A DNA stretch of 64,000 nt from Bhargavaea beijingensis (GTDB lineage Bacteria; Bacillota; Bacilli; Bacillales_A; Planococcaceae). The notes below the pieces were generated by a model. The model made no database searches, had not been told where the DNA came from, and saw only the letters and a list, made by a program, of their open reading frames with translations. Of this stretch, positions 60 to 19,292 are shown one piece after another. Both the position numbers and the translations under genes were made by a program. Within the stretch, counting starts at the first letter, position 1; the number at the start of each line of letters is the position of its first letter. Location of the stretch: assembly GCF_900101985.1 (NCBI RefSeq), contig NZ_FNAR01000009.1, positions 1-64,000 of the forward strand, given 5' to 3'.

Positions 60-1049
60 TTACCTACGATAGAGTAGATGTTTGATAAAGGGTTCCAATA
101 ATGATAGATCTGACTTGACTCGATATTGTTTGTTTCTCTTGTTTTCATTTATGGTGGAGAATTTCTCTTGCAATAGGCGGTTTGCAAGGTAAATGTTTGG
201 GAGTTTCATCAAATCCTTCAATATCTTACTGGTTACTACCTCCCCATAAATCACCCGATATTCCTGCAGTGTCGCAAGATGGGCGTCGGCGGAATCGGAA
301 TTACACTTTTTGCAGATCCATTTTCCGTGTCCGCGCTCCATCCCGATTTTAAAGCAGGATGGGCACCGGACACCGAAATCGATGTCATCGTCTGTAAGGT
401 TGTACCATTTAAAATACTGGTCCTGTTTTTCCCGGGACAGAAGGCTGAGCGTATCCACGATAAACTGCAAGTCCGTCCGTTTTAATACGGCCCGGTTCTC
501 CTTTTCCAGTTTCTCGATGTGTCCCGGCAGCCGGTCGACGGGGAATATGGGTTTACTGGCGGGGCCTTGGATAATCAGTCCGTTATAGCTTGCGAGCACG
601 ATGGCGCCGTGGACCCTCACCGGCAATTCAATGGATGCGAGAAAGCGTTCCGTCGCTGCAATCGAACGGTTCAGTTGGTCTTCGGGATTTCGCATGCCTT
701 CGCGCACACCGTTTTTAATCCGGTAAAATTGTCCGGTGTCTTCGTCAAAGTAGAGTTCACCGGTCATGTTCTTGACTTCGACTGCCAACACGAATGCCGG
801 GTGGAGCACCAGCGTATCCACCTGAACCCGCTTTCCGCCGGCCGGCACCATCACATCCTTGAGAACCATGGGCTTGTCCTTCAGCGTTGCCTCTTCCATA
901 TAAAAATCGGCTTTTTTCTCTCCGGCGTAACCGGCCAGACGCATGTCGAGGTCCTCTTTTATCCGTCCGTAAGACGGATGCCCGGTCCGCACCCTCGACT
1001 CAATAACGGCCATAGCGGCCAGCCGTTCCTGCACAACGCGCTTCCCCAT
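60..1049 (-). CDS. NERD-domain protein with zinc ribbon (NERD 1)
   Basis: NERD-family (nuclease-related domain) protein of about 329 residues; substrate and role are unknown. From the chosen start, a GxxGE motif near residue 43 precedes the nuclease-like core with D78 and the E91-V-K93 motif typical of PD-(D/E)XK folds. A CxxC...CxxC zinc ribbon at C229/C232 and C246/C249 follows, then a basic helical tail that could be a winged helix. The second ATG (1049) is preferred because AAAGGAGG lies eight bases before it and only two bases before the first ATG. It follows the minD terminator, so it is a separate unit. In B. subtilis spoIVFAB occupies this place. NERD 2 at 15318-16355 has the same layout. 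Confidence 0.8.
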   Translation of the reverse strand: MGKRVVQERLAAMAVIESRVRTGHPSYGRIKEDLDMRLAGYAGEKKADFYMEEATLKDKPMVLKDVMVPAGGKRVQVDTLVLHPAFVLAVEVKNMTGELYFDEDTGQFYRIKNGVREGMRNPEDQLNRSIAATERFLASIELPVRVHGAIVLASYNGLIIQGPASKPIFPVDRLPGHIEKLEKENRAVLKRTDLQFIVDTLSLLSREKQDQYFKWYNLTDDDIDFGVRCPSCFKIGMERGHGKWICKKCNSDSADAHLATLQEYRVIYGEVVTSKILKDLMKLPNIYLANRLLQEKFSTINENKRNKQYRVKSDLSLLEPFIKHLLYRR

Positions 1050-1072
1050 CCCCATTGCCTCCTTTCATAATA

Positions 1073-13564: not shown

Positions 13565-14431
13565 ATGAAGAGTTGTTGGGTCATTTACAATGGCAGCCTC
13601 ATATCGGATAAGTTCGCGGATCAGGCACATCTTGTCGCAGAAGCGGCGGAGCGCGCAGGAATCCGCACCGTAATCCGGAAAAACTATGAGGTCATGATGG
13701 ATCTGCAGCAAGGCGTCGCGTCGCCGCCTTCGTTCGTCGTGTTCCTGGACAAAGACATTCTATTGGCCACGTGGCTGAAGGCTTCCGGAATCCCGGTGTT
13801 TAACGATCCTGAGGTGATCGAAACGTGCGACAACAAAGCGAAGCAGTATATCAGGCTGGCGCAGGCCGGCATTCCGATGCCGCGTACAGTGGTCGCACCG
13901 AAAGTCTATCCGAACTTCTCCATCTCGGGAACCGGATACTTCGAGCAGGTACTTGCCGACTTCGGGTTGCCGATGATCATCAAAGAGGGCCACGGTTCGT
14001 TCGGCGCGAAGGTGTACCTGATCGAGACGGAAAAAGCATTTTTCGAGAAAGTGGATTCTCTCCGCGGAGTCGACTTCGTGTTCCAGGAATTCGTGGCTTC
14101 CAGCCGCGGCCGGGACATTCGGGTCAATACGGTCGGCGGCCGGATCGTTGCGGCGATGTATCGGCACTCCGAGACCGACTTTCGGGCGAACATCACGAAC
14201 GGGGGCGTCGCGGAGCCAATTGAGCTGAATGATGAACAGCAGCAGATTGCCCTGGATGCGGCACGGGCGGTCGGTGCGGAATTCGCGGGAGTCGATTTAC
14301 TGTTTGGACCGGATGGACGGACGCTCGTCTGTGAGGTCAATGCCGCCGCACATATCCGCAACATTTATAACGTGACCGCCATCAACGTGGCCGACGCGAT
14401 GATCGAATACATACTGGGGACACTTCAATGA
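13565..14431 (+). CDS. RimK-like ATP-grasp ligase A
   Basis: ATP-grasp enzyme of 288 residues, in the RimK/glutathione-synthetase-like superfamily that joins a carboxylate to an amine using ATP. The central ATP-binding lysine region (MIIKEGHGSFGAKVYLIE) is followed by an FQEF hinge. The basic RDIRVNTVGGRIVAAMYR and the metal-binding VCEVNAAAHIRN end come next. The substrate is unknown; candidates are a peptide tail, a small cofactor or a cell-envelope component. Its start has GGAGGA six bases upstream, and its stop overlaps the next start by four bases. Divergent from folC; one of only a few plus-strand genes in the window. Confidence 0.85.
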   Translation: MKSCWVIYNGSLISDKFADQAHLVAEAAERAGIRTVIRKNYEVMMDLQQGVASPPSFVVFLDKDILLATWLKASGIPVFNDPEVIETCDNKAKQYIRLAQAGIPMPRTVVAPKVYPNFSISGTGYFEQVLADFGLPMIIKEGHGSFGAKVYLIETEKAFFEKVDSLRGVDFVFQEFVASSRGRDIRVNTVGGRIVAAMYRHSETDFRANITNGGVAEPIELNDEQQQIALDAARAVGAEFAGVDLLFGPDGRTLVCEVNAAAHIRNIYNVTAINVADAMIEYILGTLQ

Positions 14432-15225
14432 AGCATGGTGTTGTTTATTACCGCCCGGAAGAGGCCGCCAGAAATGTCGGCTTCATCAAGCTTCTGAAGC
14501 TCGCGGCCGAACGCGCGGGCCTTTTGCTGACCCTGTCGATGTACCCGGACGACTTGACGCCGGACTCCGACTTTATCATCTTCCGGGAGCGGAACGCGAA
14601 ACTCGCACGGGAACTCGAAAACTCCGGCCACCGGTTATTTAATCGTGCGAAAATCAACCAGATTGCCAATGACAAGTACGCCACCTACCAGCTGGCGACG
14701 TTCATGGGGGTCCCCGCGGTCCCAAGCCGCCTTGTCGATAGCCCGGACGAACTGGACAGTTATCCCGCAGTGCTGAAGACCGTCGATGGCCACGGAGGTG
14801 TCGAAGTCGCCCGCGTCCTCGACGAAATGGAGGCCGGCTGGTTTTTCACCCGCTTCATGGACCGCCGCATCATCGGTCAGCCCTTTATCGAATCGGGCGC
14901 AGCCGACGTCCGTCTGTTCATGGTCGGCAACGAGCTTGCCGGCGCTGTCAAACGGACCGGAAGCACCGGATTCAAATCCAACTACACCCTCGGTGGCCGC
15001 GTCGACCCTTATAGGCCGACCGCAGACATGGTCCGCGCCGCCCAGCGCCTCACCAGGGCGCTGAAAAGCGACTATATCGGCGTCGACTTCCTCCTCCTCC
15101 CCGACGGTGGATTCCTACTCAACGAAATCGAGGACCCCGTCGGCGCCCGGTCACTATACGAAACAAGCGACGTCAACATCGCCGATGTCCTCATGCAGCA
15201 TATTAAGAATAAGCTGAACGAATAA
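14428..15225 (+). CDS. RimK-like ATP-grasp ligase B
   Basis: Second ATP-grasp protein, 265 residues, translationally coupled to ligase A. It has the LKTVDGHGGVEVARV phosphate loop (about residues 113-127), a QPFIESGAADVRLFMVG segment, and the metal-binding EIEDPVGARSL end, where Glu and Asp replace the usual Glu-x-Asn. This may alter metal or ligand binding. The two proteins are clearly different, not recent duplicates, so they may form a heterodimer or act in sequence on one product. A terminator follows directly, so this is a self-contained two-gene operon. Confidence 0.82.
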   Translation: MKHGVVYYRPEEAARNVGFIKLLKLAAERAGLLLTLSMYPDDLTPDSDFIIFRERNAKLARELENSGHRLFNRAKINQIANDKYATYQLATFMGVPAVPSRLVDSPDELDSYPAVLKTVDGHGGVEVARVLDEMEAGWFFTRFMDRRIIGQPFIESGAADVRLFMVGNELAGAVKRTGSTGFKSNYTLGGRVDPYRPTADMVRAAQRLTRALKSDYIGVDFLLLPDGGFLLNEIEDPVGARSLYETSDVNIADVLMQHIKNKLNE

Positions 15226-15279: not shown

Positions 15280-15384
15280 TGATCTTTCAGCGATGGTTGG
15301 TGATCTTTCGCCTTTGCTTAATGATCTTTCGCTGCCGGTTGATGATCTTTCAACGATCCGTATTGATCTTTCGTTTGACGATTG
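15280..15384 (-). repeat. 21-bp periodic repeat array, five cores (array 1)
   Basis: The 9-base core GAAAGATCA on the minus strand occurs five times without mismatch, starting (plus-strand left end) at 15280, 15301, 15322, 15343 and 15364. Every step is exactly 21 bases. The 12 bases between cores differ from unit to unit. The core set overlaps the last codons and the stop of NERD 2. A second array with the opposite orientation lies upstream of the same gene. Confidence 0.9.
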
Positions 15385-16355
15385 TGTTCCAGCCATGTCT
15401 GGACAGCATCCAAAACGATTGAAGTACTCACCAGCTTTTTATAATCCGCTGCGTATGCCGAAGCCTTTCCAGCCCCAACTTTTTTCAAAGGCAAACCTTC
15501 AGCTACGCTGCGAGCCGCTTTATGAGTTTTCAGACCGAACAACTTCATGATTTCTGCAGAAGTAATGGTGTTGCGCAGAAGCAAGAACCACGCAAGCAAC
15601 GTCAGAATATAGGGTTTGTACTCAATATGGCCGCATCTGATGCATTTCCAACTTCTCTCCGAATGTCTTTTTAGGGAACTGCTGCAGTCAAAACAAATGG
15701 GGGTGATGATAAAGTCTTTGATCTTGAGCGGGAAAGGCAGATAAGGAATGTAATGGCTAATCATAGCATCGGCAATCTGATTTAATTCCCGGTCATTGAT
15801 CATAGGCTGTTGTCCTATATGATGACGGATAAGATTTCGGGTCTCCCGCAGTTTGAAAACAGGCATTCCACTCTTGATTTCTTCAATGATGGGGTTGTTG
15901 GCAAAAACGACCACTCCGTAAACAGGTGAACGAAATCCTGCCATCGTCAGCCATTGCAAGAGATTCTGCCGCTGATCCTGCATTTGGGCAACCGGGCAAT
16001 CGTAAACAGCCAAGGTCCGACCCTCTTCATCCACTTTCCTCAATTCCGCCGGTCCGGAATGAAAACGTAATCTGCCACCGATCTGCTTGCATTCAAGCAA
16101 TAGGATACCGCTGTTTGACAGGAATGCCAGATCCATCTGAAATCGGCTCCCGCCAAAAAGTGAAAGGCTGATGTTTCTTAAAAGAACAGCATGAGCTGGC
16201 CATGCAACTGACTGTATAGCTTCAGCGACTTTCCTTTCTCCTGCCGCCCCGGCACGCAGATTTCTGAGTGTTTGCTCTGTCTCAGCCCGTTTCGGTTCAT
16301 AGGCCGGAAGCCGTTCAATCGCTTGCTCAAGAGCGAATAAAATTACATTCCCCAC
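15318..16355 (-). CDS. NERD-domain protein with zinc ribbon (NERD 2)
   Basis: NERD-family protein of 345 residues with the same plan as NERD 1. GAAGE (36-40) is followed by the nuclease-like core with D75 and E88-C-K90. A CxxC...CxxC ribbon lies at C221/C224 and C238/C241, and a helical C-terminal region resembles a winged helix. The start is GTG five bases after AAGGAA. The last 18 residues carry three KD(Q/H) steps at seven-residue intervals because the coding region runs into the 21-bp array. A NERD gene is not normally part of the folC-valS region. Function is unknown; nuclease activity is inferred from the family only. Confidence 0.8.
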   Translation of the reverse strand: MGNVILFALEQAIERLPAYEPKRAETEQTLRNLRAGAAGERKVAEAIQSVAWPAHAVLLRNISLSLFGGSRFQMDLAFLSNSGILLLECKQIGGRLRFHSGPAELRKVDEEGRTLAVYDCPVAQMQDQRQNLLQWLTMAGFRSPVYGVVVFANNPIIEEIKSGMPVFKLRETRNLIRHHIGQQPMINDRELNQIADAMISHYIPYLPFPLKIKDFIITPICFDCSSSLKRHSERSWKCIRCGHIEYKPYILTLLAWFLLLRNTITSAEIMKLFGLKTHKAARSVAEGLPLKKVGAGKASAYAADYKKLVSTSIVLDAVQTWLEHNRQTKDQYGSLKDHQPAAKDH

Positions 16356-16474
16356 CCGCTTTCCTTATTTCCCATGAGCTTAGCACGTTTTTTGACAACT
16401 TGGAATGAATTGGTTGATCTTTGATTTTTTGCGCTTTTAAGGATCCAAAATTGAACTTTGAACGCTTTTACGGT

Positions 16475-16579
16475 GAATGATCAATATACCCGTGCGAGTG
16501 ATCATCTCCAACTCGGGAAATATCAATAAGATCCTGGGAACTATCAACAAGCCGGCCCGAAAGATCATGACCGGCCGCA
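16475..16579 (+). repeat. 21-bp periodic repeat array, five degenerate cores (array 2)
   Basis: Plus-strand cores GAATGATCA, GAGTGATCA, GAAATATCA, GAACTATCA and GAAAGATCA start at 16475, 16496, 16517, 16538 and 16559, again with exact 21-base steps. A possible sixth, GAACTTTGA, starts at 16453. The cores match array 1 but lie on the opposite strand, so both arrays point away from NERD 2. They are less conserved here, apart from the last core. Confidence 0.85.
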
Positions 16580-16637: not shown

Positions 16638-19292
16638 TCAGATCTCTTTTAATTCAGCAATGCGTTTTTGCACGGCGTCGTATTTTTCTTGGTAGTCTTT
16701 CTGCTTGGCACGTTCTTCTTCGACGACGGCGGCAGGAGCTTTGGAGACGAAGCGCTCGTTCGAGAGTTTGCCTTCGACACGTTTCAGCTCACCTTGCCAC
16801 TTTCCGAGCTCTTTCTCAAGCCGTGCGAGTTCTTCCTCGATGTTGATGAGGCCTTCGAGCGGCATGAAGAGCTCGGCGCCGGTGACGACGGCGGACATGG
16901 ATTTCTCCGGTGCGGCCAGGTCGCGGCTGATGTCGAGTGTTTCCGGATTGCAGAAGCGCTCGAGGTAGGCGCGGTTGTTCTCCAATGCGGCCTGTGTTGC
17001 GTCGTCATGAGTGCGGATTGCGAGCGCGACTTTCTTGCTCATCGGCGTGTTCACTTCGGCGCGGACATTGCGTACCGCCTTGATGACGTCCATGAGGTGT
17101 TTCATGTCGCCTGCGCGCTGTTTATCGGACAGTGAAGGATCAGCGACCGGCCACTTCGCGGTGACGATCGACTCGCCTTCATGCGGCAGGCTCTGCCAGA
17201 TTTCTTCCGTGATAAATGGCATGAACGGGTGAAGCAGGCGCATCGTGTTGTCGAGGACGTATGCAAGGATCGAGCGGGTCGTCTTTTTGGCCGCTTCGTC
17301 TTCCCCGTACAGCGGCAGCTTCGCCATCTCGATGTACCAGTCACAGAAGTCATCCCAGATGAAGTTGTACAGCGCGCGGCCCACTTCGCCGAATTCGTAT
17401 TTATCAGCAAGCTTGGTGACCGTCTCGATCGTTTCGTTCAGACGGGTCAGGATCCATGCATCTGCAGCGGACTTCTTCCCGCTCAGGTCGATTTCCTCGT
17501 ACTTCAGCCCATCCATGTTCATCAATGCAAACCGGGAGGCGTTCCAGATTTTGTTCGCGAAGTTCCAGACGGATTCCACTTTCTCATTCGAGAAGCGCAG
17601 GTCCTGTCCGGGCGACGAGCCGGTCGCGAGGAAGTACCGCAGCGAGTCCGCGCCGTACTGGTCGATGACGTCCATCGGATCGACACCGTTGCCGAGCGAC
17701 TTGGACATTTTGCGGCCGTCTTCCGCGCGGACGAGTCCATGGATCAATACGTCATCAAACGGACGCTTGCCGGTGAATTCGAGTCCCTGGAAAATCATCC
17801 GGGATACCCAGAAAAAGATGATGTCATAGCCCGTCACAAGTACATCGGTCGGGTAGTAGCGCTTGAACAGCTCGTTGTCCTCATCCGGCCAGTTCAGTGT
17901 CGAAAACGGCCAGAGGGCGGACGAGAACCAGGTATCGAGGACGTCTTCGTCCTGTTTCCAGTTTTCCGCGTCTGCCGGCGCTTCCATTCCGACATACACT
18001 TCGCCGGTTTCCTTGTGATACCAGGCCGGGATCTGGTGCCCCCACCAGAGCTGGCGGGAGATGCACCAGTCGCGGATATTCTCCATCCAGTTCAGGTACG
18101 TCTTCTCGAAACGCTCCGGAACGAAGCTGACTTTGTCCTCGCCCTTCTGAAGCTCGACCGCGCCTTCGGCAAGCGGCTCCATCTTGACGAACCATTGAGT
18201 GGACAAATACGGTTCAACGACCGCTCCGCTCCGCTCGGAATGACCGACGGAGTGCATATGCTCTTCGATTTCAAAGAGGACACCCATCTCCTGCAGATCC
18301 TTGACGATTTGCTTGCGGCACTCAAAGCGGTCCATGCCCTGGTACTTGCCGGCACGTTCGTTCATCGACCCGTCCTCGTTCATGACAAGAACGCGCTCCA
18401 GATTGTGGCGGTTGCCGATCTCAAAGTCGTTAGGATCGTGTGCAGGCGTGATTTTCACGGCACCGCTCCCGAAGTCCATCTCGACGTAGTCGTCCGCTAC
18501 AATCGGGATTTCGCGGCCAACAATCGGCAACTTGACCGTTTTGCCGATCAGATGCTTGTAGCGTTCATCATCCGGATGGACAGCGACCGCCGTATCCCCG
18601 AGCATCGTCTCGGGACGTGTCGTCGCAATTTCAATCGACCCCGTGCCATCAGCGAGCGGGTACCGCATATGATAGAAGGCACCCTGTACGTCTTTATAGA
18701 TGACTTCGATGTCAGAGAGGGCTGTCTTCGTCTGGGGATCCCAGTTGATGATGTATTCGCCGCGATAGATCAGGCCTTTTTCATACAGCTTGACGAAAAC
18801 CGTGCGCACCGCTTCAGACAGGCCCTGATCCAGTGTGAACCGCTCGCGGGAATAGTCGAGGCCGAGACCGAGCTTTGCCCACTGCTCGCGGATATGGCCG
18901 GCATATTCCTCTTTCCATTTCCATGACTCTTCAAGAAACGTTTCCCGTCCGAGATCATAGCGGCTCTTTCCTTCTTCGCGAAGCTTTCCTTCGACCTTCG
19001 CCTGTGTCGCGATTCCGGCGTGGTCCATCCCCGGCAGCCAGAGCGCATCATAACCCTGCATGCGCTTCATGCGGATCAGGATGTCCTGCAGCGTCGTATC
19101 CCAGGCGTGGCCGAGGTGGAGCTTGCCCGTGACGTTCGGCGGCGGAATCACGATCGTGTACGGCTCCTTGCCGCTTTCCGGCTGCGCTTCAAAGAACTTG
19201 CCGTTGACCCACCATTCATACCTGCCGCGCTCGATCGACTGCGGATCGTACTTTGTCGGCAGGGACGTTTCCTGCTGTCCGTTCTGTTCCAT
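16638..19292 (-). CDS. valS: Valine--tRNA ligase
   Basis: Class I aminoacyl-tRNA synthetase charging tRNA-Val. It has 884 residues, the usual length. The HIGH-type motif lies in [16 protein letters not shown] (about residues 51-66) and KMSKSLGNG near residue 526. The editing domain contains [17 protein letters not shown]. The last 65 or so residues form the charged coiled-coil tRNA arm. It is controlled by the valine T-box leader directly upstream. In B. subtilis valS is followed by folC; here the NERD gene, both arrays and the ATP-grasp pair separate them. Confidence 0.97.

Follow-up and report, generated by a model that had tools for sequence, protein, structure and literature searches.

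Long-type NERD genes of Bacilli are associated with arrays of 21-bp repeats that carry a cognate core; core and protein have diversified together, the number of dispersed arrays in a genome is tied to the gene, and arrays turn over at shared sites. To account for these observations, we propose, as a reading we consider probable though well short of certain, that NERD recognises its own arrays via its C-terminal domain and that the pair persists and spreads in the manner of REP/RAYT, with an unrelated protein and unrelated DNA. In this scheme the arrays and the NERD gene would be one system. The C-terminal zinc-ribbon/HTH part of NERD would recognise the 9-14 bp core that its own arrays carry, which we infer, strongly as regards binding, from the comparisons below, and the 21-bp step (two helical turns) would set several NERD copies on one DNA face. 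The arrays flanking the gene and those at tens of intergenic sites would all be cognate to one NERD protein, and the paralogs of a genome would each have a private core, with protein and core changing together. By analogy with what is thought of RAYT and REPs, we further hypothesize that the nuclease drives the spread or rewriting of the arrays, its activity probably aiding their copying, loss and re-formation at intergenic sites.

The initial annotation had described, in the window (the whole 64-kb stretch of Bhargavaea beijingensis DNA that was analysed), two arrays of five exact and five related cores with a strict 21-bp step, both pointing outward from a NERD gene; arrays, step and orientation were all confirmed (Table 1). 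Array 1 has convergent genes on either side and lies downstream of the NERD gene, overlapping its 3' end: the last codons and the stop codon of the NERD ORF fall within array units, and at 15318-15372 these units encode the NERD C-terminus (KDQ...KDH...KDH) and the stop, as they likewise do in G007. The cores of array 2 are, by unit, GAATGATCA, GAGTGATCA, GAAATATCA, GAACTATCA and GAAAGATCA. The window contains GAAAGATCA 7 times against 0.96 expected, and none of 100 shuffles contained it 7 times. The description of the spacers as variable needs qualification; they do vary, but are conserved in part, with unit positions 11-14 mostly Y-A-A-S. The second long-type NERD gene of the window lies at the contig edge after a minD-like sequence; there is no array on its readable side, and the other side is cut off.

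Table 1. Features of the window and of the NERD protein encoded between the two arrays.
Feature	Position	Strand	Description
Second long-type NERD gene	63..1064	minus	family-profile hmmsearch, E 1.5e-74
ATP-grasp gene	14428..15225	plus	Pfam RimK 2.2e-17; conserved neighbour, other side from valS
Array 1	15280..15372	minus	five 21-bp units, exact GAAAGATCA cores
NERD gene	15321..16355	minus	345 aa
NERD domain	residues 35-151		PF08378, Pfam E 4.2e-11
NERD catalytic-type residues	E40, D75, E88, K90, Q124		
NERD zinc ribbon	C221, C224, C238, C241		cysteines, all four conserved
NERD C-terminal HTH-like region	residues about 249-300		putative; sequence pattern and low-confidence model
Array 2	16475..16567	plus	five 21-bp units; lies between NERD start and valS end
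valS	16638..19292	minus	conserved neighbour; marks the syntenic site in congeners

The association extends well beyond this locus. We defined as long type those proteins with a NERD nuclease domain, a zinc ribbon and a C-terminal HTH-like region, and as short type those of about 250 aa, and we surveyed 139 distinct long-type NERD loci in Bacilli, using 30 short-type loci and the periods 15 to 35 as controls. A period-21 array lies within 1 kb of 116 of the 139 long-type genes (72 upstream, 93 downstream, 49 both), whereas none of the other periods (15 to 35) was found at more than 6 of them, and a period-21 array was found at only 1 of the 30 short-type loci. The remaining 23 long-type loci had no array by the detector used, which requires at least 3 similar units and therefore misses degenerate arrays. 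Loci of this kind occur in Bhargavaea, in other genera of its family and in other families of Bacilli. Where both flanks carry an array, left and right have the same core in 48 of 49 loci, their similarity exceeding the 95th percentile of comparisons across loci. The inverted orientation of the flanks, on the other hand, was not borne out as a rule: 21 of these 49 loci are inverted and 28 direct, and we dropped it as a defining trait. Some loci (L086, L189, L192, L194 and L182) show higher-order repeats, in which blocks of 4-7 units recur whole, with block sizes of, for example, about 103 bp (L189, L192) and about 205 bp (L194).

Each gene has a core of its own. At the syntenic valS-NERD-ATP-grasp site of other Bhargavaea species the 21-bp step is kept and the core is different: GAAAGTACAC in G003, GAGAGTCCAAGCA-like in G001 and G005, GAATAGATAG in G002 and G004, and GAGATTGCAC-like in G006. 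Each genome has about 7-12 NERD paralogs, and those elsewhere in the genome again carry their own core apiece. Over 5,778 locus pairs, which are not independent and for which we therefore claim no p-value, a core is shared by 96% of pairs with at least 80% protein identity, 73% at 70-80%, 31% at 60-70%, and 0-4% both at 30-60% and at 20-45%. When the NERD domain is allowed for, the C-terminal region correlates with the core (partial r about 0.4-0.5 for close pairs, at identity thresholds of 50-65%; the pairs are not independent), while the zinc ribbon has about no partial correlation with it in these pairs. At L137, one core base differs from that of the orthologues (CTATGAGCGC against CTATGCGCGC) together with a change in the presumed wing, a coincidence we regard as suggestive. 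In B. massiliensis (G006), the NERD at the valS locus (L126) has GAGATTGCAC-like flanks, yet the genome contains many GAAAGATCA arrays.

Further GAAAGATCA arrays lie between genes genome-wide, and the idea that arrays occur only at NERD genes was set aside. The 2.99-Mb genome from which the window comes has about twelve GAAAGATCA arrays, the window pair included. Apart from that pair, none flanks a NERD gene: the remaining NERD genes are separated by tens of kilobases or more from any further GAAAGATCA array, or are on other contigs. A two-unit pattern allowing up to 3 mismatches matched 36 places in this genome, and its reversed control matched none. At every locus examined in detail the arrays are intergenic, apart from overlaps with gene ends. 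The dispersed ones have 2-8 units in either orientation relative to the flanking genes, and often follow directly on a terminator or lie between two terminators that face each other. In the named collection, exact three-unit GAAAGATCA matches came mainly from B. massiliensis and B. cecembensis, and the closest relatives with the pattern are the congeners. Exact three-unit matches were also seen in a Parabacteroides record and in a record of an uncultured bacterium (L035, L036).

The number of dispersed units depends on the gene. For six cores we counted, in each genome, the pairs of adjacent units; this gave 15 cells in which a cognate NERD was found and 33 in which none was; the median is 29 unit pairs with the cognate NERD and 0 without it (one-sided rank test, p about 8e-8, with cells that share ancestry). 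Three cores are abundant in a genome for which the search turned up no cognate NERD: GAAAGATCA in G006 (23), GAATGACGAAA in G003 (109) and GAAAGTACA in G007 (16). Such arrays may be remnants from a gene that has since changed or been lost, or the search may have missed the cognate gene; the per-genome NERD lists are possibly incomplete. The initial annotation had named two findings that would speak against its reading. The first, arrays scattered without NERD genes, holds in part, in that arrays do lie far from NERD genes within a genome, but most such genomes contain the cognate NERD. The second, NERD orthologues lacking arrays, did not turn up: within the genus, all orthologues examined carry arrays, and in some species the core is a different one.

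We also compared five groups of syntenic gaps between genomes. In four of the five, GAAAGATCA arrays in G000, G001, G006 or G007 stand opposite GAAAGTACA arrays in G003; spacers and unit numbers differ, and the orientation is flipped once. Since the same sites carry a different core, spacers and orientation, the arrays seem to have been replaced rather than altered one position at a time. At two GAATGACGAAA sites the arms differ by whole 21-bp units, and at one site G006 has two GAATGACGAAA elements in tandem where G005 is nearly empty, with only a single-unit trace. Comparison of two orthologous GAATGACGAAA sites identified no target-site duplication and no precise insertion boundary.

The 21-bp step is constant over dozens of unrelated cores. 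The GAATGACGAAA core (L047:14914-15078, L321-L340) occurs mostly as inverted array pairs dispersed over many intergenic sites, and the central gap of these pairs measures 17 bp in 14 of 18 cases; in the other 4 it measures 5-7 bp, shorter by about one helical turn. An invariant step combined with gap classes one turn apart favours a protein on one face of double-stranded DNA, in support of what the initial annotation had suggested from the window alone. Such binding could occur without any spread: NERD might bind its cognate arrays for chromosome organisation or for control of genes, its own included, while the arrays arise by slippage and are selected for binding and the nuclease domain acts elsewhere. 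The fixed helical phase would suit this alternative, as would the arrays at both ends of the NERD gene, for which autoregulation is easily imagined, and the conservation of the cores, which differ by 6% between species against 34% for spacers and 39% for flanks, a contrast that out-of-register alignment of repeats can inflate. However, most of the dispersed arrays examined lie past terminators or between convergent genes and not at promoters, there are tens of copies per core, and shared sites have been taken over by arrays that differ in core, spacers and orientation. We think binding without spread unlikely.

NERD is a PD-(D/E)xK-type family, and the window protein has the conserved acidic and lysine residues of that family; G36, G39, E40, D75, E88, K90 and Q124 are conserved at 98% or more among 129 homologues. 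Because its catalytic residues are nearly invariant, the protein is likely an active nuclease. A Pfam search matched it to no transposase family. Its C-terminal region appears HTH-like from the residue pattern and the model rather than from any solved relative; structure prediction was of low confidence (mean pLDDT 37 with one sequence and 42 with three sequences), and a profile search of solved structures returned weak zinc-ribbon matches only (best E 0.038). Between species the NERD protein is 39-68% identical, whereas identity reaches 91-97% in valS and 66-97% in the ATP-grasp gene, which, judged from its position and family, is RimK-like and of the YheC/D type; the NERD gene thus evolves far faster than its neighbours. 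Phage and plasmid protein collections contained no NERD protein of the long type, and the gene itself therefore does not look mobile.

Many paralogs per genome, fast-changing specificity and nearly invariant catalytic residues could also be read as signs of defence or self/non-self discrimination, in which paralogs of private specificity would act against incoming DNA and the chromosomal arrays would hold or restrain the nuclease. Restriction systems likewise combine rapidly changing specificity with nearly invariant catalytic residues. However, the NERD protein had no match in PADLOC-DB and only sub-threshold matches in NCBIfam, and we saw no modification enzyme that regularly accompanies the window NERD gene. 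A defensive role is accordingly an improbable reading to us.

The arrays might instead act as RNA, as guide or attenuator arrays. A short conserved core with variable spacers beside the gene of a nucleic-acid enzyme recalls CRISPR-like or TIGR arrays. However, the two window arrays show no more folding than their shuffled versions (z -0.5 and -0.3) and match no Rfam family, and on these grounds we set this reading aside as very improbable. The arrays also differ from CRISPR and TIGR-Tas in their exact 21-bp step and in being short, with 2-8 units scattered over many sites and facing either way relative to the flanking genes; many lie past terminators or between two facing ones. No cas or tas genes were seen at the window locus, where the neighbours are valS and the ATP-grasp gene. 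NERD has been listed among putative CRISPR auxiliary genes (PMC10910872). Finally, that the arrays are coding repeats (of a 7-residue peptide), or repeats merely near NERD genes by coincidence, is scarcely credible: the reading frame through the array (...ERS...) stays open, and the C-terminus of NERD extends into the array, but the intergenic position of the arrays at loci examined in detail, gene-end overlaps excepted, and the period-21 contrast between long- and short-type loci over many unrelated cores led us to discard the coding reading.

Returning to recognition with spread, the closest working analogue of the NERD-array pair is, in our comparison, REP/RAYT (TnpA-REP, REPINs). RAYT genes have cognate flanking repeats, dispersed intergenic copies, co-diversification, fast gene evolution and gene-dependent repeat number (PMC2817692). 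The NERD genes too are fast-evolving and flanked by cognate, co-evolving repeats, with dispersed intergenic copies whose number follows the cognate gene, the three exceptions above (GAAAGATCA, GAATGACGAAA, GAAAGTACA) apart. The analogy drawn in the initial annotation thus stands for cognate pairing, dispersed copies and rapid co-diversification, and falls for inverted flanks as a rule. RAYT is a tyrosine HUH/Y1 nuclease (Transposase_17), whereas NERD belongs to PF08378; RAYT always lies between two inverted repeats, whereas the NERD flanks may be inverted or direct; and REPs are palindromic, whereas the NERD arrays are 21-bp direct repeats with variable spacers and no excess folding in the window, although one core, GAATGACGAAA, does form inverted array pairs. 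Since three defining features of REP/RAYT are lacking, we do not file the NERD arrays under that heading.

Two other systems have a similar repeat geometry. Iteron arrays at plasmid origins consist of direct repeats spaced by about two helical turns, to which a cognate protein binds; the NERD arrays differ in being chromosomal, dispersed and beside a nuclease gene, and no Rep protein was seen. Tn7-type transposons have arrays of about 22-bp TnsB sites near the element ends; the window locus has no transposase module, and the NERD arrays mostly stand alone, with no fixed orientation.

It is quite possible, and we suggest it tentatively, that these pairs constitute an undescribed Bacillales nuclease-repeat system in which each NERD paralog is sequence-specific and maintains and spreads its own arrays, with about 7-12 such pairs per genome. 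We regard the system as new in kind because it fell outside the families tested and because no earlier description was found in the open-licence PubMed Central literature; an account in a subscription journal or preprint is possible. Long-type NERD proteins, which are widespread in Bacilli, are now tied to a readable DNA target: the flanking array of each paralog states the sequence that the paralog should bind. Known cores make binding, cleavage and spread directly testable, and the many natural protein-core pairs are material for a recognition code. If our proposal is true, the REP/RAYT way of life would have evolved a second time, independently, in the NERD-array pair. Among the dispersed sequences we also noted a separate repeat of about 150 bp (L334:2062-2216), for which the genus yields several tens of matches at 84-90% identity.
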